Part shown: positions 8,667-37,457 of the stretch, piece by piece
How positions within the stretch are numbered: position 1 is the first letter of the stretch
Layout: the number at the start of each line of letters is the position of its first letter
Source of the DNA: Candidatus Gastranaerophilales bacterium
GTDB lineage: Bacteria; Cyanobacteriota; Vampirovibrionia; Gastranaerophilales; Gastranaerophilaceae
DNA: 37,457 nucleotides
Direction of reading: 5' to 3'
Assembly (NCBI GenBank): GCA_944323035.1
Contig: CALUQY010000017.1
Location: 1-37,457, forward strand
Made by a program: the position numbers and the translations under genes
The notes under the pieces: generated by a model
Told to the model about the DNA's origin: nothing
The model's input: only the letters and a program-made list of their open reading frames with translations
Databases searched by the model: none

Positions 8667-9629
8667 TTATCTTTTTACGCACCAGACATGAACTGAGCTG
8701 CTATTTCTGTCCCATTCTGCTTTAACACCGTTATAAACCCCTACTACATACGCTTTGTCAGAAGAAATCAGATTTGAAGACCAGTAAATTGTATTTATCG
8801 CATCCCACTCAAATAAGTTTTTGTTGTAATAAATTGTTATAAGTTCTTCAACATTTGGCAGTCTATATTCACTATCCTGATTCCGGCAGGCTTTTCCGGC
8901 ATCGGCGTGTTTGGCGGTACCGGCTTCATTTACATTTGGAACAGGCATAACAACCTGACTATCACTTGAATATATTGCGCTCATAATACCAATATCCCGC
9001 CCGACAGTGTTTGGGCCTTTGCTGCCGTTCAAATCAAATACAAAATTTGCACATACCTGTTGCTTAATCATAGTGGCTTCGGCGTACGTATCAGTATAAG
9101 ATACTTCAACATTTGAAGCTGTACAGTCTTTGTTATAAAATACCAGAATGGATTCTCCGTTAGCAGTTTCAAATGCTGCCGCTTTTGTATCAGGAATACT
9201 TATTCCATGCATTGGCGCAATTATACCGGAGTTTAGTTCCCCTAATGTTTTAGGTAAACTTATGATATTGCCCTTTATTGTTGTAATTTTGCTGCTCAAT
9301 CCGCAATCTTCGATTTTAGCAGGCGAACAAATATTATTAATTTTCAGAACTTTACTCAAACCGCTGGTAATAAATGTTTCTGCTGCTGTATCGACTGCCG
9401 GCGCAGAAGATGTTGCCTCTGTTACCGTTCCATATCCGTTGAGGTTTGGCATAAGCGAAATTGCCTGTGACATACGGGCGTACAAAGCTTTTCTCTGTGT
9501 GTTCCATGTCCGCTCGTTGATGTTGCCGGTGAGGCTTGGAAGTGTTATCGCTGCAACTATACCGATTATTGTGAGAGATAACAGAATTTCTGCCATCGTA
9601 AACGCATTTTTTAAAACTCTTAAATCCAT
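8667..9629 (-). CDS. Prepilin-like protein with Lcl/DUF1566-like C-terminus
   Basis: 320 aa. The N-terminus MDLRVLKNAFTMAEILLS is a short-leader class III signal peptide: predicted cleavage before Phe, Glu at +5, then a hydrophobic helix (LLSLTIIGIVAAITLPSL). The C-terminal ~70 residues (CRNQDSEYRLPNVEEL ... YWSSNL ... HVWCVKR) resemble the Lcl_C/DUF1566 domain seen in surface and filament proteins. Two paralogues lie at 19982 and 23947, sharing an almost identical first ~55 mature residues and diverging later. This copy has a normal leader with an AAAGGA ribosome-binding site, its own promoter and a terminator. An operator-like palindrome overlaps its start of transcription. Confidence 0.82.
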   Translation of the reverse strand: MDLRVLKNAFTMAEILLSLTIIGIVAAITLPSLTGNINERTWNTQRKALYARMSQAISLMPNLNGYGTVTEATSSAPAVDTAAETFITSGLSKVLKINNICSPAKIEDCGLSSKITTIKGNIISLPKTLGELNSGIIAPMHGISIPDTKAAAFETANGESILVFYNKDCTASNVEVSYTDTYAEATMIKQQVCANFVFDLNGSKGPNTVGRDIGIMSAIYSSDSQVVMPVPNVNEAGTAKHADAGKACRNQDSEYRLPNVEELITIYYNKNLFEWDAINTIYWSSNLISSDKAYVVGVYNGVKAEWDRNSSSVHVWCVKR

Positions 9630-19530: not shown

Positions 19531-19596
19531 ATGAAAAAACGAAGTGTAAGCATTTTATCAGGGGGGGGGGGGGCCTCTCTTAACAGGCACTATTGA
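19531..19596 (+). CDS. Poly-G leader peptide 1 (out of frame with prepilin)
   Basis: The ATG at 19531 follows AAAGGATGGAAAGA, a good ribosome-binding site. It reads MKKRSVSILSGGGG and, with the present 13 G, continues ASLNRHY and stops at 19596. A frame shift by one added G (or two lost) would instead continue PLLTGTIDES and stay open for 474 codons to the prepilin stop at 20995. The leader matches those at 23829 and 37348. Whether the short peptide itself has a role is unknown. Confidence 0.55.
   Translation: MKKRSVSILSGGGGASLNRHY
19561..19573 (+). repeat. Poly-G tract, 13 G
   Basis: Uninterrupted run of 13 G inside the leader reading frame at 19531. Such tracts change length by slipped-strand mispairing in other bacteria and switch translation. 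Confidence 0.85.
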
Positions 19597-19680
19597 CGAG
19601 TCGGCCGCTGAGCGGCATCCACAAAGCGACCCGAGTGGGAATTTAACGAAAGAAGTAAGCACGAAGGCCGTAAAGTATCC

Positions 19681-19715
19681 GTCATTGCGAGCGGTCGCAG
19701 ACCGCGCGGCAATCC
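19681..19715 (+). repeat. Dispersed GTCATTGCGAG repeat
   Basis: GTCATTGCGAG ... GGCAATCC with an internal hairpin GCGGTC-GCA-GACCGC (19691-19705). It lies inside the open frame connecting the poly-G leader to the prepilin body and is related to the repeat at 4378. Confidence 0.6.
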
Positions 19716-19981
19716 ATTCAACGTTGGTACTGCGCCTCGCGTTTTCTTGTTCGACTCGCGGAAAACGTGCCTACGTGCTTTCAGCACTCCGCACTCCGCT
19801 CGCTCACGCAAACGCTACCGCTCGCGCTTGCGGTCAAAAGCGTGCCGGCCAAGCCGGTCTTATAACGTCGCGTTCAGTCGCTACAACGTATTGTGGATGT
19901 GCCTCAGGCACGCCGCGTCGTGCGCTCGACTCTACACAAGGCAAGCCTTGTTCCGTGGCTCTGCTCGGCTTGACCTTTACC

Positions 19982-20995
19982 ATGACCGCCCGGCTGAGCC
20001 GGTTCCATAATGGGCTGGTCGGCTTACGGTCAGCGTTCACAATGGCAGAGATATTATTATCCCTGACGATAATTGGTGTGGTTGCGGCGATAACGCTTCC
20101 GTCACTTACGGGAAACATTAACGAACGCACGTGGAACACGCAGAGAAAAGCCCTTTATGCCCGTTTTAGTCAGGCAATTGCATTAATGCCTTCCCTCAAC
20201 GGCTATGGAACCTTACGGGAAAGTACTGATAGTGCGGGCTCAACATCAATAGAAGATACCGCCGCCGAAACCTTTGTTACAAGCGGGCTTTCTAAAGTCC
20301 TTAAAATCAACAATATTTGTGATAATGAGCACCTTGAAGATTGCGGGCTTCCTTCCAGAATTACGACGTTAGATGCAAGTCAAATCTCAACTCCAACAAA
20401 AATGTCTGAACTTAATTCTAAAATGACTTCTGTGAATGTTGCGGATTGGATCAGTTCAGGGGCTTATCTGACTTATGATACCATTGATACAAAGGCTGCA
20501 GCTTTTGAAACCGCGAATGGGGAAAGTATTCTGGTATTTTATAATCCTTCTTGTCAGGCAGATATGCAGGAAACAGGACGATATTATGTGCAAACTAAAC
20601 TTTGCGCGACATTTATTTATGATTTGAACGGAAATAAAGGCCCAAATACGGTGAATAAAGATGTCGGGATTATCAGTGTAATTTATCCGACGGATAGTGT
20701 TGTAGTTGCGCCATATCCGCATGCGCAAAATGCTTCTACAAGTGTTTCCTATGATGATTCAGCCGCGGCTTGTACAGCTCAGGATTCCGAATACCGCGTG
20801 CCAAATAAATATGAATTGATGTCAATGTTTTCTGCGCAAAAGTTATATGGGCTGAGTGCTTCTTCGGGGTATAATACCTCTTCGCTTGCTCAGATTCAGT
20901 ATAGTACGCTTGCATGGCGTATTGCCTTTGTCGCAGGGACTATGGAACCTCATCCCAAAACTCATGGTTATGCACTTCGCTGTGTTAAACGCTAG
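19982..20995 (+). CDS. Prepilin-like protein, body of poly-G locus 1
   Basis: From the ATG at 19982 this is 337 aa: a leader of about 20 residues, then SAFTMAEILLSLTIIGVV, the class III signal with Glu at +5, and an exported domain ending CVKR. It is a close paralogue of the proteins at 8667 and 23947. No ribosome-binding site precedes 19982, and the frame stays open upstream to the poly-G tract (19574) through repeat-derived sequence, so the true product may be a fusion made only when the tract length puts the MKK leader in frame. Compared with the ordinary paralogue at 8667, the original short leader has been replaced by GC-rich repeat sequence. A terminator follows. Confidence 0.7.
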   Translation: MTARLSRFHNGLVGLRSAFTMAEILLSLTIIGVVAAITLPSLTGNINERTWNTQRKALYARFSQAIALMPSLNGYGTLRESTDSAGSTSIEDTAAETFVTSGLSKVLKINNICDNEHLEDCGLPSRITTLDASQISTPTKMSELNSKMTSVNVADWISSGAYLTYDTIDTKAAAFETANGESILVFYNPSCQADMQETGRYYVQTKLCATFIYDLNGNKGPNTVNKDVGIISVIYPTDSVVVAPYPHAQNASTSVSYDDSAAACTAQDSEYRVPNKYELMSMFSAQKLYGLSASSGYNTSSLAQIQYSTLAWRIAFVAGTMEPHPKTHGYALRCVKR

Positions 20996-21468: not shown

Positions 21469-23706
21469 ATGGCAAGGAAAAAAAAGTACAGTTCCATGAA
21501 TAATAAGGGGCAAAACGGGTTTGTAAAAGCGCTTGGAGCTGCAAAGTTTGCTATTATTTTGACTGCAGCCGGAGTTTTGGCCGGATATACAGCGCTGACG
21601 GTTTGTCTTTCTTCCCAGCCGCCTATACCGAATTTAGCTAATTACGAACCTAATATCGTTACGCAATTTTATTCTTCTGACGGACAAATAATTAAAACCT
21701 TTGCGGCTTATTCCTATAAAAAAGTCGCTATTAAAGATGTTCCGAAAGATTTTATAAACGCTCTGCTGGCAACAGAGGACAAAAATTTTTATAAGCACCA
21801 CGGCTATGACATCTGGGGCATGGGGCGTTCTGTTGTTAGCAATGTCCTTGCAGGAAGAGTCGTTCAGGGCGCAAGCACTATTACCCAGCAGCTTGCACGC
21901 TTGTTGTTCCTCTCTAATGAAAAATCTTTAGACAGAAAAATTAAAGAACTTTTTGTTGCAGCAAGTATTGAAAACAGTATTTCCAAAGACAAAATTCTCG
22001 AACTTTACGTAAATAATATTTATTTAGGCTCCGGCGCGTACGGAATTCAGGCCGCGGCGCAGACATATTTTAATAAACCCTTAAAAGAACTTTCACTTCC
22101 GGAACTTGCTTTGATTGCCGGACTTCCGCAGGCCCCGTCGGTTTATTCGCCTTATAATAATATAAAACTCGCAGAAAAAAGACGTAATCAGGTTCTATGG
22201 CGTATGTATAAGATGCGCTATATTAATAAAAAACAGTTTGAAGCCGCGAAAAAATCTCCGATTGTACTGGGCACAATGCCTAAAAATATGACGACTAATA
22301 AAGCTCCTTATTTCTGTGATTATGTGCTTAAAGAGCTGGAAAAATTAGGATATTCGGAAGAAGAGATTACAAAAGGCGGCTATAAAGTCACAACTACTTT
22401 GAACTATAAAATGCAGCAGGCGGCTGCAGATGCTATTCCGAAAAGAATGAAAGAATTCGGACTTGTCGGCGCTAAATATCAGGCGGCATTCTTTGCCTAC
22501 GACCATTCCAACGGTAAAATTCTTTCTTACGTCGGCGGGAAAAATTATGTCCAAAGCCAGTATGACCGTGTAACGCAGGCAATCCGACCGCCGGGATCAG
22601 CGTTTAAACCTTTTGTTTATGCAGTTGCCTTAGAACAAGGATATTCTCCCAACGATATGGTTTCAGATATGCCTGTAACTATCGGTGATTGGTCGCCTAG
22701 AAACTACGGTAACAAATACCGCGGCGAAATACCTTTCTATACTGCGTTAATGGTTTCTTCCAACGTCTGCGCGGCAAGACTTATAGCAGATGTCGGCGTC
22801 CGTTCGGTAATCCAGCTTGTGCGTTCGCTCGGAATTGAAACTCCTATCGCTTATGACCATACTATTGCGCTCGGCTCAAACGGGGTGAAACTCTTTGAAT
22901 TTACCCGTGCATACAGCGCTTTTGCAAACGGCGGGTTCGTCACTCAGCCTTATTCTGTTGAAAAAATTGAATCGCCGAGAGGTAAAATTCTCTATGAAGC
23001 GCCAAAAACAAGAATGTATAGAGAATTAAACTATAGAACTGCCGCTCAAATGACTGCAATTATGAAAACAGTTATCACAAGCGGAACCGGACGCGCTGCA
23101 AATATCGGCGCCCCTGCGGCCGGTAAAACCGGTACCACCAATAATAATAAAGATGCTTACTTCGTTGGCTATACGCCTAACGTGGTTGCTGCGGTCTGGG
23201 TCGGTAATGATGATAACTCCGCTTCCTCAAGAGGTGTTGTCGGCGGAACAGTTCCTGCCAGAATCTGGCATGATGCAATGCTTCCGGCTGTACAAATTTT
23301 TGGTAAAGCAGATTTTCCGTATCCGCCGGTTTCTCTAATGGCGTTCAGTCTGCCAAAAGGCGCTGTTATTATTAATAACGGCGAACCGGAGCTTAAAGGC
23401 GAAGAGGTTGAGGACACCCCGACAACCGGAAATACTCCTGCGGCAGATGTGAAAACAATAAACTTCCAGCCAAAAGCCTTTACATCACCTTTAGATATAT
23501 TTAAGAATAACCAGAAAAATAATGAGTTAGAAAAGCTTAAAGAACAAATTAAACGTCAAAAGCAAGAAATTCAAGAACAGGAAAGGGCGCAGAAAGAACG
23601 TCTGGAAGCTGCTAAAATAAAACCGGCACCGCAGCCTTCCGGCTCTCAAACGTTTCCTAGCGGACTAGCCACCCCGCAATTGCCGCTTCCGACTGCAGTT
23701 GAGTAA
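21469..23706 (+). CDS. mrcA: Penicillin-binding protein 1A (bifunctional)
   Basis: 745 aa. A cytoplasmic basic start, one membrane helix (~25-46), then the GT51 glycosyltransferase domain with its catalytic Glu103 in ATEDKNFYKHHG and GASTITQQLARLL. The transpeptidase domain has the Ser377-x-x-Lys380 motif (GSAFK), SSN at 430-432 and KTG at 553-555. The C-terminus is a Pro/Gln/Lys-rich tail with a coiled coil (~690-720). It polymerises and cross-links peptidoglycan. AGAGGT lies before the ATG. The ending terminator is shared with the next promoter's -35 box. Confidence 0.95.
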   Translation: MARKKKYSSMNNKGQNGFVKALGAAKFAIILTAAGVLAGYTALTVCLSSQPPIPNLANYEPNIVTQFYSSDGQIIKTFAAYSYKKVAIKDVPKDFINALLATEDKNFYKHHGYDIWGMGRSVVSNVLAGRVVQGASTITQQLARLLFLSNEKSLDRKIKELFVAASIENSISKDKILELYVNNIYLGSGAYGIQAAAQTYFNKPLKELSLPELALIAGLPQAPSVYSPYNNIKLAEKRRNQVLWRMYKMRYINKKQFEAAKKSPIVLGTMPKNMTTNKAPYFCDYVLKELEKLGYSEEEITKGGYKVTTTLNYKMQQAAADAIPKRMKEFGLVGAKYQAAFFAYDHSNGKILSYVGGKNYVQSQYDRVTQAIRPPGSAFKPFVYAVALEQGYSPNDMVSDMPVTIGDWSPRNYGNKYRGEIPFYTALMVSSNVCAARLIADVGVRSVIQLVRSLGIETPIAYDHTIALGSNGVKLFEFTRAYSAFANGGFVTQPYSVEKIESPRGKILYEAPKTRMYRELNYRTAAQMTAIMKTVITSGTGRAANIGAPAAGKTGTTNNNKDAYFVGYTPNVVAAVWVGNDDNSASSRGVVGGTVPARIWHDAMLPAVQIFGKADFPYPPVSLMAFSLPKGAVIINNGEPELKGEEVEDTPTTGNTPAADVKTINFQPKAFTSPLDIFKNNQKNNELEKLKEQIKRQKQEIQEQERAQKERLEAAKIKPAPQPSGSQTFPSGLATPQLPLPTAVE

Positions 23707-23715
23707 AAAGTTTTA

Positions 23716-23750
23716 AAAAGGTCAAGTTCTGCACTTGACCTTTTTGTTAA
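23716..23750 (+). terminator. Terminator after PBP1A
   Basis: AAAAAGGTCAAG pairs with CTTGACCTTTTT around TTCTGCA, followed by GTT. Its 3' arm contains the TTGACC used as a -35 box by the next locus. Confidence 0.85.
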
Positions 23751-23763
23751 AATCGTACATAAT
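23735..23763 (+). promoter_or_regulatory. Promoter of poly-G leader locus 2
   Basis: TTGACC (23735-23740), 17-base spacer, CATAAT (23758-23763). Same pattern as locus 1 and 3. The -35 box lies in the descending arm of the PBP1A terminator. Short hairpins (GCCGC/GCGGC, CCGGG/CCCGG) follow in the leader. Confidence 0.75.
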
Positions 23764-23828
23764 GAAGAAGTGCCGCATAGCGGCATCCACAATAAGACCC
23801 GGGTAAATCCCGGAGAAAGGATAGAGAA

Positions 23829-23885
23829 ATGAAAAAACAGAGAAGTGTAAGTATTTGTACGGGGGGGGGGGGGGGGCCTTCTTAG
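23829..23885 (+). CDS. Poly-G leader peptide 2 (out of frame with prepilin)
   Basis: The ATG follows AAAGGATAGAGAA. It reads MKKQRSVSICTGGGGGPS and stops at 23885 with the present 16 G. With one G fewer (or two more) it would enter the frame LLSGCEAP..., which is open to the prepilin stop at 25044. The sequence right after the tract (LLSG in that frame) matches LLTG in loci 1 and 3, suggesting that this is the selected frame. Confidence 0.55.
   Translation: MKKQRSVSICTGGGGGPS
23861..23876 (+). repeat. Poly-G tract, 16 G
   Basis: Longest of five G runs of 12 or more in the window, all on the plus strand. Lies within the second leader reading frame. Confidence 0.85.
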
Positions 23886-23946
23886 CGGATGTGAAGCGCC
23901 GGCGCCGGTTCGCGTGAGCGAAACGGGCAGGGCGCGCAACTGGACG

Positions 23947-25044
23947 ATGCCGCCGTTGCGACTGGAGCGCGAGTGTAAGGAGCACTCTGCCGAACAAAAC
24001 GATTTATTATCGTTTTGTGAGAGGCGAAATTCTGCAACGATTGATAATCGTTGCGTAGAATTTGACAGGCAGGAGAACCAACGTTGCGCATTTACGATGG
24101 CGGAAATATTACTGTCATTGACAATCATTGGCGTGGTTGCTGCGATAACGCTCCCGTCATTGACCGGCAATATCAACGAACGAACATGGAATACGCAAAG
24201 AAAAGCACTTTATGCGCGGTTTTCACAGGCAATTTCCCTTATGCCGGCTTTGAATGGTTATGGAACTTTGACGGAAGATGAGAGCGGAAGTATTACCAAG
24301 GATACCGCCGCCGAAACCTTTGTCACTAACGGACTTGCAAAAGTCCTAAAAATTAATAACATTTGCGACAGTGATCACCTTGCGGATTGCGGCTTCCCTT
24401 CTAAGATTGTTAATTTGGCCGGCAGCAATATTTCACCTATTCCGCAATCATTAGTTAGCTTTAATAATATGTTTAACGGTTCGTATAGCAATCCGGACGG
24501 GCTATATATTTATTCTTATTCACAGGCAGATACAAAAGCTGCTGCATTTGAAACGCAAAATGGAGAGAGTATTTTAACATATTACAATCCGAACTGTGTG
24601 GCAAACTACAATGAAACCGGATTCTTTTATATTCAATCTAAGGTTTGTGCAAATTTTGTGTATGACCTGAATGGGGTAAAAGGGCCTAATACTGTTGGTA
24701 AGGATATAGGGTTTATAACAGTATTTTATCCATCGGATTCTGTCGTTGCCGCACCTTATCCTTCTATCCAGCGTGCTGCAACTGACAGAACATCACAGGC
24801 TGACGCCGGCAGAGCTTGTCTGGAGCAGGATTCAAATACACGTGTTCCTAATATGTATGAATTAGGTGCGATGTTTGTTAATAAAGAATTAATGAAATCC
24901 TCTATTATTGAAGAATTAGGTACAAACGGTGTCTGGTCAAGTTCTCGTTTGTCCGCTAATCGGGGATGGTACCTTAACTGGGAAGCAGGATTCTTTTATA
25001 ATGAAGCTGATTGGACGGCAAATGTCTGGTGTATTCAACGCTAA
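23947..25044 (+). CDS. Prepilin-like protein, body of poly-G locus 2
   Basis: 365 aa from the ATG at 23947 (a GTG at 23914 gives 376). About 48 residues of Arg/Glu/Asn-rich, repeat-derived sequence precede RCAFTMAEILLSLTIIG, the class III signal with Glu at +5. The rest is a paralogue of 8667 and 19982, ending YLNWEAGFFYNE ... VWCIQR, with Lcl/DUF1566-like features (WSSSRLS). No plausible start with a ribosome-binding site lies just before the signal; an AGGAGA at 24071 is followed by a start only in another frame. The frame is open back to the poly-G tract, so expression probably depends on the MKKQRSV leader. Confidence 0.7.
   Translation: MPPLRLERECKEHSAEQNDLLSFCERRNSATIDNRCVEFDRQENQRCAFTMAEILLSLTIIGVVAAITLPSLTGNINERTWNTQRKALYARFSQAISLMPALNGYGTLTEDESGSITKDTAAETFVTNGLAKVLKINNICDSDHLADCGFPSKIVNLAGSNISPIPQSLVSFNNMFNGSYSNPDGLYIYSYSQADTKAAAFETQNGESILTYYNPNCVANYNETGFFYIQSKVCANFVYDLNGVKGPNTVGKDIGFITVFYPSDSVVAAPYPSIQRAATDRTSQADAGRACLEQDSNTRVPNMYELGAMFVNKELMKSSIIEELGTNGVWSSSRLSANRGWYLNWEAGFFYNEADWTANVWCIQR
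23970..24075 (+). repeat. Hairpin repeat module within prepilin locus 2
   Basis: GCACTCTGCCGA, a hairpin ACAAAACGAT/ATCGTTTTGT (23994-24018), then GAGAGG is the same outer arrangement as in the repeats at 8484 and 36089, with a different stem and loop. A second hairpin GCAACGATT/AATCGTTGC follows near 24032-24052. The module lies inside the reading frame of the prepilin. Confidence 0.55.
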
Positions 25045-25076: not shown

Positions 25077-27602
25077 TTATTCTTGTTCCGTTGTTTCGCT
25101 TACTCCGGCGGTTGTACTCGCTTTCGCTCTGCTTTTACGCTTTGGTGCTTTCTCAAAAGCAATTTTATCATCCACAAGCGTAATCTTTATTGTATCACCC
25201 GGTGCATATTTGCCGGAGAGAATTTCTTCCGCAAGCATATCTTCTATCTTGCGTTGTATTAACCTTCTTAGCGGTCTTGCACCGTAAGCTTCCGAATATC
25301 CGTCTTTTGCAAGGTAATCTTTAACTTCATCGGTTACTTCAACAGAAAGCTCTCTTTCTGCAAGGCGTTTAAACAGGTCTTTTAGCATCAAATCAACAAT
25401 CTGTCTGATTTCTTCTTTAGAAAGATGTGCAAAGACAATTGTTTCGTCAATACGGTTCAAGAATTCCGGTCTGAACGCTTTTTTCATCTCTTCGGTAACG
25501 GTTTCTTTGAGTTTTTCGTACTTATCCTTTGATTCATCAGAAGATGTTGAAAAACCGAGTCTTGATGTCGTTGTAATCATACTTGCCCCAACGTTTGAGG
25601 TCATAATGATTACGGTATTTTTGAAGTTGATATAGCGTCCTTTTGCATCAGTCAGACGTCCGTCATCAAGGATTTGGAGCATGATGTTGAATACATCAGG
25701 GTGTGCTTTTTCAATTTCATCGAAAAGGATTACGGAATAAGGTTTTTTACGAACCAATTCTGTTAAATGTCCGCCGTCATCGTAACCAACGTAGCCCGGA
25801 GGGGAGCCGATAAGTTTTGCGGTGGAATGTTTTTCCATAAATTCTGACATATCAACACGAATCATGTTGTCTTCTGAACCAAAAATGGCTTCTGCAAGTG
25901 CTTTTGCAAGTTCTGTTTTACCAACACCTGTAGGTCCGCAGAAGATAAAGCTTCCGATTGGTCTATTCGGGCTTTTTAAGCCGACGCGTGCTCTGCGGAT
26001 TGCTTTTGAAATCGCAACGACGGCGTCGTTTTGGCCGATAACTCTTGCGTGAAGCGTTTTTTCAAGGTTAAGAAGTCTTTCGCTTTCGCCTTCTGTAAGT
26101 TTGGTTACCGGAACGCCTGTCATTGTAGCGATAACAGAGGCAACATCTTCTTCTGTTACGGTTGGTTTATTTGCTTCGTGTTCCTCTTTATATTGTTGTG
26201 CCATTTCGCGAATTCGTTCTTTCATATCAGCTTCTTCATCGCGCAGCTGGGAAGCTTTTTCAAATTCCTGATTGCGAATAGCGTTTTCTTTTTCTTTAAT
26301 AAGTTCTTTTAATTCTTTTTCAAGTTCTTTGCCTTCCGGTGAAAGCGTTGAAACTTTAAGACGAACTTTAGAACTTGCTTCATCAATTACGTCGATTGCT
26401 TTATCCGGCAGAAATCTGTCGGTGATATATTTGCTTGAAAGTTTAACCGCAGCTTCAATCGCCGCATCTGAAATAATCAGATTGTGGTGTTCTTCGTATT
26501 TTGGTTTCAAGCCTTTAATAATTTCGATTGATTCAGCTTCGGACGGCTCTTCAATCATAACGGTTTGGAAGCGGCGTTCAAGAGCGGAATCTTTTTCAAC
26601 GTATTTTCTGTATTCATCGAGAGTTGTCGCACCGATAACCTGAATTTCGCCTCTGGAAAGAGCAGGTTTCAGAATATTTGCGGCATCAATCGCACCTTCT
26701 GCGGCGCCTGCGCCGATGAGGGTGTGCATTTCGTCAATAACAAGAATAATGTTTCCGGCCTGACGAATTTCGTCCATAATTTTTTTAAGTCTTTCTTCAA
26801 ATTCACCGCGGTATTTTGTACCTGCAACGAGCAGCCCCATATCGAGCTGGATAACTTTTTTGCCGTCTAGAATGTCCGGAACTTCGGAGTTAACAATTCT
26901 GGTTGCAAGACCTTCTGCAACGGCAGTTTTACCGACACCCGGTTCACCGATAAGAACAGGGTTGTTTTTAGTTCTTCTCGCAAGAATTTGGATAACACGT
27001 TCAATTTCTTTTTCTCTGCCTACAACCGGATCGAGTCTTAATTCCTGAGCGGCAAGAGTTAAGTCGCGTCCGAATTCATCAAGACTAGGAGTTTTTGCTT
27101 TGCTTGTAGAAGAGCTTGATGAAGAACTTGACGTTGATGTGGAAGAAGAACCGGCAGTTGTGGTTTTGGTTTCTCCCAGCATTTTAATTACGTTAGTACG
27201 GACTTTGTTCAAATCAACGTTGAGGTTTTCAAGAACTCTTGCGGCTACGCCTTCGCCTTCTCTGATTAAACCGAGAAGCAGGTGCTCTGTACCGATATAG
27301 TTGTGACCGAGTTGTCTTGCCTCATCCCATGAAAGTTCAAGAACTCTTTTCGCTCTTGGCGTAAACGGGATTTCTACCGCAACGAAGCCTGAACCTCTGC
27401 CGATAATTTTTTCGACTTCCGCTCTGGCATCTTTGAGGTTAACCCCCATTGATTTGAGTGCTTTTGCCGCGACTCCGGTGCCTTCACCGATTAAGCCTAA
27501 AAGAACCTGTTCTGTGCCGACAAAGTTGTGGCCAAGACGACGGGCTTCTTCCTGGGCAAGCATTATAACTTTTATTGCTTTCTCCGTAAAACGTTCAAAC
27601 AT
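25077..27602 (-). CDS. clpC: ATP-dependent chaperone ClpC
   Basis: 841 aa. Two Clp N-terminal repeats (1-65 and ~80-140; [18 protein letters not shown] and [18 protein letters not shown]), a Ser/Thr-rich linker (~147-168), first AAA+ domain with GEPGVGKT at 219-226, a coiled UVR-containing middle domain (~430-470, [14 protein letters not shown]), and second AAA+ domain with GPTGVGKT at 556-563. It unfolds substrates for ClpP. The sequence is of the cyanobacterial/plastid ClpC type. GGAG precedes the ATG and a good promoter lies upstream. ClpP is not in the window. Confidence 0.97.
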
Positions 27603-27738: not shown

Positions 27739-27750
27739 GGGGGGGGGGGG
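27739..27750 (+). repeat. Poly-G tract, 12 G, intergenic
   Basis: Run of 12 G preceded by eight A and followed by CTTTTT, between clpC and the terminator of the gene at 27837. I see no reading frame through it. Confidence 0.8.
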
Positions 27751-27836: not shown

Positions 27837-29063
27837 CTAATTTTCTCCGTAGCTATTCGGATGTAATTCATCGAGGAATCTTTGAGAATTAATAAATTCA
27901 AGATCTTCTATTTTTTGTTCCCAGGATTGACCTTCAGCCAGCCCGTTGCGTTCTTTGACGTGTCCGTGTTCATCTCTGTAAAGATAACCCTGTTGGGTGT
28001 ATTGTCCGTCTGCACCCATAACATATTTACGAACACAGTTATTTGCTTCATCCGGTACAAAAATTATTTTTTGTGCATTGAAGGTATCCCAGTCACCGGC
28101 ATTCATTTTTGAGTATTCTGATTGTTCTTTACCTGCAAACGGTGAAACGATGTCACAGATAATTGCTTCCTGACCGTTGAAGGTTGTTTTGCCGATTTTC
28201 ATTTGTTTGACATAAGTCGTTGGATTTTTATCGTTTTCGTAATCAACTACGTGCAGCGCATAAGCCTGTTGCTTTTCGCTGGTATTTTGTGCGTCAAATC
28301 TGGCTTCGAGTGCGTGTTGCTCAAACATTTTAGCGCCCTTCATCTGTACTGTTGTCCCATTTGTATTTTCACCCGGTGTCAGAATATCAGTGATTCTATC
28401 CAGAACCGGTTCCGGTTCTCCCGTATATTCAGGGTTTGTCGGGACTTCAATTGTTTCGCCCGGAACTTCAATATATACAGGAACTTCTTTGATAATTTCT
28501 TTTTCAACGATTTTTTCGACAATAACCTCTACCGGTACTTCGACAATTACTTCTTTTTCTACAACCTTTTCAACAATCTTTTCAACAACGACTTCGACCG
28601 GTACTTCCTTGATGACTTCGACTTCCTTGATGACTTCTTTAATGACTTCAACCGGAACTTCGACTTCAACAATTTTTTCAACTTCTTTTATGACTTCAAC
28701 GATTTTTTCGACAGGCACCTCTTTTACGACTTCAACTTCGACAATTTTTTCAGGAATGTCACGTGACTCAAGGTTCATTTCAACGGTGTGTTTACCCGCT
28801 AACTCGTTATAATAATCATCTTCATTGCAGCTTGTTAGTCCCAGTGCTGCGGCGCCTACGGCTGTACCGGCTGCTGCCTTTTTAATATTCGGATTTGATA
28901 CTGCCTGTTGTAATTTAGGAGCAATATTAAATGAAAATGCCGGTTTTAAATTTTTTAATGTTTTTAAGCCTTTACCTTTTGTTGCAAGTGCAAGTATTCC
29001 CAAACCCGCAGCAGTCGCCACTGCACCAATAGTAATTGCTTCAGAATTCATTCCATTTCCCAT
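27837..29063 (-). CDS. Repeat-containing, probably exported protein
   Basis: 408 aa, function unknown. The N-terminal 80 residues contain small-residue hydrophobic stretches: IGAVATAAGLGILALA (~12-27) and AAAGTAVGAAALGLTSC (~63-79), the latter ending like a lipobox (LGLTSC) but far from the start. Residues ~105-215 are a long array of short Glu/Val/Lys/Ile units (KEVPVEKIVEV, VEVIKEV), expected to form an extended rod. A globular domain follows (~230-400; MKIGKTTFNGQEAIICDIV, YLYRDEHGHVKERNG). AGGGGA precedes the ATG. A 13-base poly-C (minus strand) lies ~50 bases upstream, in or near its promoter. Confidence 0.75.
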   Translation of the reverse strand: MGNGMNSEAITIGAVATAAGLGILALATKGKGLKTLKNLKPAFSFNIAPKLQQAVSNPNIKKAAAGTAVGAAALGLTSCNEDDYYNELAGKHTVEMNLESRDIPEKIVEVEVVKEVPVEKIVEVIKEVEKIVEVEVPVEVIKEVIKEVEVIKEVPVEVVVEKIVEKVVEKEVIVEVPVEVIVEKIVEKEIIKEVPVYIEVPGETIEVPTNPEYTGEPEPVLDRITDILTPGENTNGTTVQMKGAKMFEQHALEARFDAQNTSEKQQAYALHVVDYENDKNPTTYVKQMKIGKTTFNGQEAIICDIVSPFAGKEQSEYSKMNAGDWDTFNAQKIIFVPDEANNCVRKYVMGADGQYTQQGYLYRDEHGHVKERNGLAEGQSWEQKIEDLEFINSQRFLDELHPNSYGEN

Positions 29064-29110: not shown

Positions 29111-29123
29111 GGGGGGGGGGGGG
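29111..29123 (+). repeat. Poly-G tract, 13 G, upstream of the repeat-protein gene
   Basis: 13 G on the plus strand; poly-C in the promoter region of the minus-strand gene at 27837. The sequence after it, TTAACAGGC (29129-29137), also follows the tracts at 19561 and 37381 (CTTAACAGGC), so this site is related to the leader loci. Confidence 0.8.
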
Positions 29124-37347: not shown

Positions 37348-37457
37348 ATGAAAAAACAGAGAAGTGTAATTACTTGCACAGGGGGGGGGGGGCCTCTCTT
37401 AACAGGCACTATTGAGGAGTCGCAAGCCTATAATTGTCATTCTGAACAGCGCGAGCG
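37348..37457 (+). CDS. Poly-G leader gene 3, in-frame state (partial)
   Basis: The ATG follows AAAGGATGGAAAA. It reads MKKQRSVITCTGGGGPLL and continues TGTIEESQAYNCHSEQRE to the window end without a stop. With 12 G here the leader is in the PLLTG frame, the one that leads to prepilin bodies in the two other loci, so this copy may be switched on. The last part is encoded by a dispersed TGTCATTCTGAAC repeat. Whether a prepilin follows lies beyond the window. Confidence 0.65.
   Translation, partial: MKKQRSVITCTGGGGPLLTGTIEESQAYNCHSEQRE
37381..37392 (+). repeat. Poly-G tract, 12 G
   Basis: Run of 12 G inside the leader reading frame at 37348, followed by CCTCTCTTAACAGGCAC as in locus 1. Confidence 0.85.

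Follow-up and report, generated by a model that had tools for sequence, protein, structure and literature searches.

In Neisseria, type IV pilin is both switched on and off and diversified by recombination, with one expressed pilE and silent donors, and the palindromic elements of Rickettsia place repeat DNA in frame within proteins. In Bifidobacterium breve, replication slippage at an intragenic G-tract switches the expression of sortase-dependent pili ON and OFF (PMC9187656, in its available excerpts), and Campylobacter carries poly-G contingency loci, with 1 to 22 variable tracts in each strain spread over genes of varied kinds (PMC539331, likewise in excerpt). Type IV pilus genes have been described in a termite-gut melainabacterium (PMC5877343) and DUF1566 domains with putative pilin structures are listed among retroelement targets (PMC6642488), as far as the accessible portions of both papers go. 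Within the open-licence literature, we found no poly-G switching of pilins in the lineage studied here and nothing joining Melainabacteria to a diversity-generating retroelement; for Melainabacteria and phase variation, the accessible portions of that literature gave flagellins only and no pili.

Here we describe a locus (locus 2) which is very probably one member of a very large pilin-adhesin family under slippage-driven phase variation. The window analyzed (37,457 nt) is the entire contig C17 of a Candidatus Gastranaerophilus genome (G000; 1.94 Mb, 41 contigs, 99.89% complete), and locus 2 occupies positions 23735-25044 of its + strand. A sigma-70-like promoter of its own, TTGACC-N17-CATAAT (23735..23763, a consensus match only), is followed by a Shine-Dalgarno-like AAAGGA (23816..23821) 7 nt 5' of the leader ATG, the leader start encoding MKKQRSVSIC plus two bases of the following codon (23829..23860), a tract of 16 G (23861..23876) proposed as the slippage switch, a 214-nt connector that contains two short palindromes and is stop-free only in the prepilin frame (23877..24090), and a mature pilin-like protein of 317 aa plus stop, FTMAEILLSL... 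(24091..25044), with an N-terminal pilin helix and a C-terminal C-type-lectin-like domain.

From the ATG at 23829 across 16 G, the leader frame reads MKKQRSVSICTGGGGGPS and is then closed by TAG (23883..23885), exactly where a first-pass annotation of this DNA had ended it. The prepilin stop is TAA 25042-25044; since 25042 − 23829 = 1213 = 3 × 404 + 1, the ATG joins the prepilin with one G less (15) or two extra (18), the same two lengths that the annotation had named. The joined product has 404 aa, of which 317 remain if it is cut at A|FTMAE, and the residues 3' of the tract in this frame are LLSG (codons 23878-23889). The annotation's description of the locus as currently off holds on the consensus sequence, where 16 G is one base out of step; all tract lengths given here are assembly consensus, without reads.

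We propose that the promoter and ribosome site, both sequence motifs, would start translation of the short leader, while slippage, itself inferred, would add or remove G in the tract. At 15 or 18 G ribosomes would continue through the connector into the pilin; at 16 G, the present state, they would stop two codons past the tract. Once in frame, the product would be cut at A|FTMAE by prepilin peptidase, discarding leader, glycines and connector, an inferred step that would explain why repeat debris is tolerated while the connector stays open. The exported product would then consist of an N-terminal pilin helix and a C-type-lectin-like tip, the fold resting on a model and binding being inferred. 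Such leaders, at 70-200 residues, are far longer than any prepilin leaders known to us, so cleavage is not assured.

Several properties of the encoded protein bear on this proposal. F1, T2, A4 and E5 of the cleavage/methylation motif, including the Glu at +5, are invariant in 60 paralogues, themselves chosen by a motif of the same kind. Residue −1 is A in 52 and G in 9 of the 61 open loci of this genome (A in locus 2), and the genome has a single prepilin peptidase match (PF01478 over cut-off, C6:41899-42261). Locus 2 scores over the cut-off for the TIGR02532 prepilin domain (17.6 bits against 16.3) and below it for Pfam N_methyl (18.4 against 21.2). The structure predicted from 60 paralogues of this genome (pLDDT 90.7, pTM 0.86) contains an N-terminal helix at 3-50 (block pLDDT 62-95) and a C-terminal domain that aligns with the C-terminal domain of Legionella Lcl (8q4e; Z 12.4, 110 aligned, 4.3 Å), with further fold matches to Bd2740 (Z 11.0), invasin (Z 10.0) and intimin (Z 9.4). 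Foldseek placed the same domain with the Lcl C-terminal/C-type-lectin-like fold (E 2.2e-4), and PF07603 matched 38/60 paralogues at E ≤ 0.01, with no match for locus 2 itself. As modeled, the mature product joins a type IV pilin helix to a tip resembling a C-type lectin; it is likely an adhesin, adhesion being inferred from the predicted fold without expression data.

The window holds further copies of this layout. Locus 1 (19531..20995, + strand) has its ATG at 19531 and 13 G at 19561-19573, one base over the in-frame length, and locus 3 (37348..37457, + strand) has a leader of the same type with its ATG at 37348 and 12 G at 37381-37392, a count that puts PLLTG in frame, the contig ending inside it before any prepilin. 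A prepilin paralogue (8667..9629, − strand) that has a short leader and lacks a poly-G tract provides a contrast. Locus 2 itself lies between an upstream penicillin-binding-protein gene (21469-23706), which is 98% identical to the copy in a Candidatus Gastranaerophilales assembly and 91% identical to that in Candidatus Gastranaerophilus phascolarctosicola, and a large minus-strand gene (25077-27602). Nine-G matches number 26 in the window against 0.03 expected, and the genome contains 87 tracts of at least 10 G; poly-G tracts are thus not a product of chance. Two lie in other settings: 12 G at 27739-27750 between two minus-strand genes with no prepilin downstream, and a tract at 29111-29123 that precedes the ATG of a minus-strand gene (27837-29063) by 47 nt and is poly-C in the orientation of that gene; its flank (G)nATTGCTTAACAGGCT is common to three places in the genome (the window, L077 and L097), and it is possibly a promoter-region switch.

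Across the genome, an FTMAE-type prepilin lies at most 1.5 kb downstream of 64/88 tracts (8 G or more, in fetched segments), and 61 of these 64 have a frame open back to the tract. A stricter first pass gave 90 matches to the prepilin motif, of which 63 lie downstream of a tract, and tblastn with the locus 2 pilin domain gave 102 matches, some of them fragments of one gene. The other 24/88 tracts have no prepilin downstream, some being at contig ends; where no tract is visible, the prepilin either sits at a contig end or carries a leader of another, often short, kind. Contig ends are frequent at tracts and connectors (e.g., window 37457, L099-L104), so the family is probably undercounted. Sigma-70-like promoters occur in the 300 nt preceding the ATG in 44/63 loci (background 0.029 per 300 nt) and a Shine-Dalgarno-like motif precedes it in 59/60, although this motif also served in picking leader ATGs and the latter count is not independent of selection. 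A second leader type, ENPC with a GGG run and 12 G (e.g., C9:78911, C11:55878), was also observed; all 9/9 copies with an open connector are in the +1 state.

The strongest evidence that the tract and the prepilin belong together comes from the connectors. Among those of at least 60 nt in this genome, the prepilin frame is stop-free in 57/60 and each other forward frame in 0/60, against a shuffle expectation of 2.4; in the sister species G004 the prepilin frame is open in 36/37 and the other forward frames in 0 and 0 (expectation 2.4). On the reverse strand, the three frames are open in 3, 16 and 5 of the 60 connectors, indicating that repeat composition alone opens some reverse frames but not the other forward ones. 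Alignments of connectors between loci, which overlap and are not independent, keep the same frame in 1433/1487 cases. The difference between 57/60 and 0/60 argues that the joined frame is maintained, and so the selection on this frame that the first-pass annotation had read from LLSG alone now rests on far stronger, family-wide evidence. The annotation had also held that relatives with stops in the connecting frame of otherwise intact prepilins would refute it. Such stops occur, though rarely: 3/64 loci of this genome carry one and in 2 of these 3 the prepilin is otherwise intact. These two cases count against the phase-variation reading.

What is kept appears to be the openness of the connector rather than its residues. 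Mismatches by codon position are nearly flat in shared connector modules (3461/3817/4416, from the same overlapping alignments) and strongly skewed in the control, the opening 120 nt of the pilin domain (5946/1196/40277), so that the residues of the connector hardly seem to matter; judged from these patterns, connector drift is apparently near-neutral and the pilin domain apparently under purifying drift across paralogues. Connectors are mosaics whose modules recur across loci, and 55/60 match places outside the masked leader regions, some of which are leader loci cut by contig ends. The last module often repeats FTMA shortly before the true FTMAE (e.g., window 19975-20040), as if an insertion had duplicated its target.

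Could locus 2 instead be a decaying pseudogene, or have its true start inside the connector? It is out of frame at 16 G, and GTG 23914, ATG 23947 and TTG 23956 all lie in the prepilin frame within its connector. None of the three is preceded by a Shine-Dalgarno-like motif, on which ground we rejected internal initiation here, and starts so preceded occur in only 7/60 connectors; the apparent purifying drift of the pilin domain across paralogues speaks against decay. We find this explanation scarcely credible beside slippage-driven phase variation. Gene callers will nonetheless place false internal starts in such genes, as at GTG 23914.

The LL[ST]G residues deserve separate mention. The annotation had likened LLSG of locus 2 to LLTG of loci 1 and 3, and PLLTG can indeed be read in both, in frame with 12 G; it took the match as a sign of selection and proposed a synonymous/non-synonymous-type comparison. 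The part concerning frame maintenance stands; the flatness of codon positions in connectors reveals no amino-acid selection, and selection on the LL[ST]G residues themselves is not supported. In G001 and G003, many compact leaders have LLTA, SLTG or LLTG directly before FTMAE, while others end differently (e.g., RAQQA, GKIA). The congener G002, which lacks tracts, has 15 pilin matches, the start being readable in 8, with 7 short leaders (e.g., MNNKLA, MKKFA) and 1 longer one. Because connector mismatches are flat and compact relatives carry LLTA or LLTG before FTMAE, LLTG/LLSG is best read as the old leader end after which connectors would have been inserted, an inference from sequence comparison. 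At one site, tips that are 98% identical follow a long connector in G000 and a compact SFLTG|F leader in G004, which fits a recent insertion or loss of the connector.

We then considered the switch states themselves, restricting the count to loci whose connector is open and whose leader is recognized. In-frame/+1/+2 counts were 13/45/2 in G000, so that 13/60 members are in frame and locus 2 shares its +1 offset with 45/60; 8/26/2 in G004 and 1/6/0 in G005; and 15/12/9 in G001, 14/9/6 in G003 and 2/3/3 in G006 (with 10 fetched loci for each of G005 and G006, and chosen stretches rather than whole genomes for G001, G003 and G004). There is thus a strong and so far unexplained +1 excess in G000, G004 and G005, unlike G001, G003 and G006. 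The states in the former three genomes are far from random and are not predicted by a simple random switch. A mutational equilibrium length is not favored as the sole cause, since the +1 state in G000 spans 12, 13, 14 and 16 G; shared descent of leaders could mimic +1 at several lengths. The excess may reflect selection that keeps genes off by default but a single slip away from on, or recoding, or shared descent; all three remain possible.

Recoding would make the tract a site at which slippage of RNA polymerase or of the ribosome over 13-16 G yields some pilin from the +1 state, making expression low rather than off. The +1 excess in three genomes of this comparison and in three other genera, together with its persistence at four lengths, is what such a site would lead one to expect; the mixed phases of G001, G003 and G006 include in-frame members that recoding would make needless, and the +1 frame meets a stop within 2-15 codons in 21/21 distinct post-tract modules of this genome. 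We regard it as unlikely. A further concern is that tract lengths are assembly artefacts, homopolymer miscounts hiding genes that are mostly in frame: these repeats interrupt the assemblies, with many contig ends close to tracts, and some tracts, in G001, contain N. Polymerase stutter, however, mostly loses bases, whereas the excess is +1; tracts of 12-16 G are well within short-read span, and connector openness is independent of exact G counts. Miscounting on this scale is, in our judgment, highly improbable.

Length differences between close copies are available at the family level only; none of the pairs that we found involves locus 2. C1:60250 in G000 has 13 G and is in frame, while its G004 counterpart, with identical leader and connector DNA, has 14 G and is out; a tandem pair in G001 with an identical leader has 13 G out of frame and 12 G in frame. 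The LLSG module occurs in four loci of G000, with 16 G (+1, locus 2), 8 G (+2), 12 G (in frame) and 13 G (+1), the 12-G sister, C6:69109, being in frame with a 396-aa ORF. Comparing tract length with the syntenic locus 2 gene in L115 was ruled out by its different leader and post-tract module and visibly different tip. Among 11 G000/G004 site pairs, 0 share identical leader DNA and 2 share the first 15 nt after the tract; of the 9 with long enough tips, 3 are 88-98% identical and 6 are 40-46% identical.

The phenomenon extends beyond these genomes. Tracts of at least 11 G number 0 to 108 across 60 genomes of the family, with at least 20 in 12/60, and correlate roughly with prepilin counts (Spearman 0.66; counts are first-look candidates in match-rich genomes and match counts elsewhere); G013 and G017 have many prepilins and almost no tracts. 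In the three other genera, whose leaders differ, a broader motif that may include false prepilins found a prepilin-like motif downstream of 21/30 tracts, open in 19/21, with in-frame/+1/+2 counts of 2/15/1 for open loci with a leader.

One family member in this genome is also associated with a diversity-generating retroelement. On contig C16 (L081:5951-10244), a poly-G-gated prepilin, the target, precedes an Avd-like gene (PF22296 over cut-off, NF033474 below cut-off) and a reverse transcriptase (PF00078). A 138-nt template repeat differs from the prepilin 3' end by 11 mismatches, 9 at template adenines; in G004 the template is identical and the variable repeat has 11 mismatches, 10 at adenines, and a G001 gene differs from the G000 template by 12, 10 at adenines. 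This pattern carries the signature of such an element with this one member as its target. No further targets were seen in the fetched segments of this genome, and PADLOC returned only reverse-transcriptase matches of other kinds.

Taken further, these observations are compatible with a genome-wide pilin lottery, a proposition that we hold to be evenly balanced: dozens of pilins with lectin tips, most of them off by default and a single G away from on, whose leaders, connectors and tips are shuffled between chromosomal sites, a diversity-generating retroelement rewriting at least one tip, and whose disposable leader, being cut off before export, is a tolerated landing zone for repeat DNA. The phase-variable set proposed here would be, to our knowledge, among the largest in which poly-G switches serve a single family, in non-photosynthetic gut relatives of cyanobacteria, and offers a testable account of surface-adhesin variation in uncultured gut commensals.

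Each known system shares part of this arrangement. As in Neisseria, these loci involve type IV pili and would combine on/off switching with diversification by recombination, but here the complete genes run to dozens, most of them preceded by their own promoter-like site. As with the Rickettsia palindromic elements, repeat DNA lies in frame inside coding sequence; here, however, it fills a leader that is probably cut off. Campylobacter, as far as the excerpted source describes it (PMC539331), likewise has many poly-G tracts with G on the coding strand giving polyglycine; there, length variation is seen in reads, whereas only consensus lengths exist for our loci, and most tracts of this genome belong to one paralogous pilin family. 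Closest in kind, on the available part of its description (PMC9187656), is the pilus G-tract switch of B. breve, also a gut commensal with intragenic G-tracts in pilus genes: its two clusters encode sortase pili, whereas this genome has 64 layouts of type-IV-type prepilins whose tracts lie within a probably discarded leader, followed by long repeat-built connectors.
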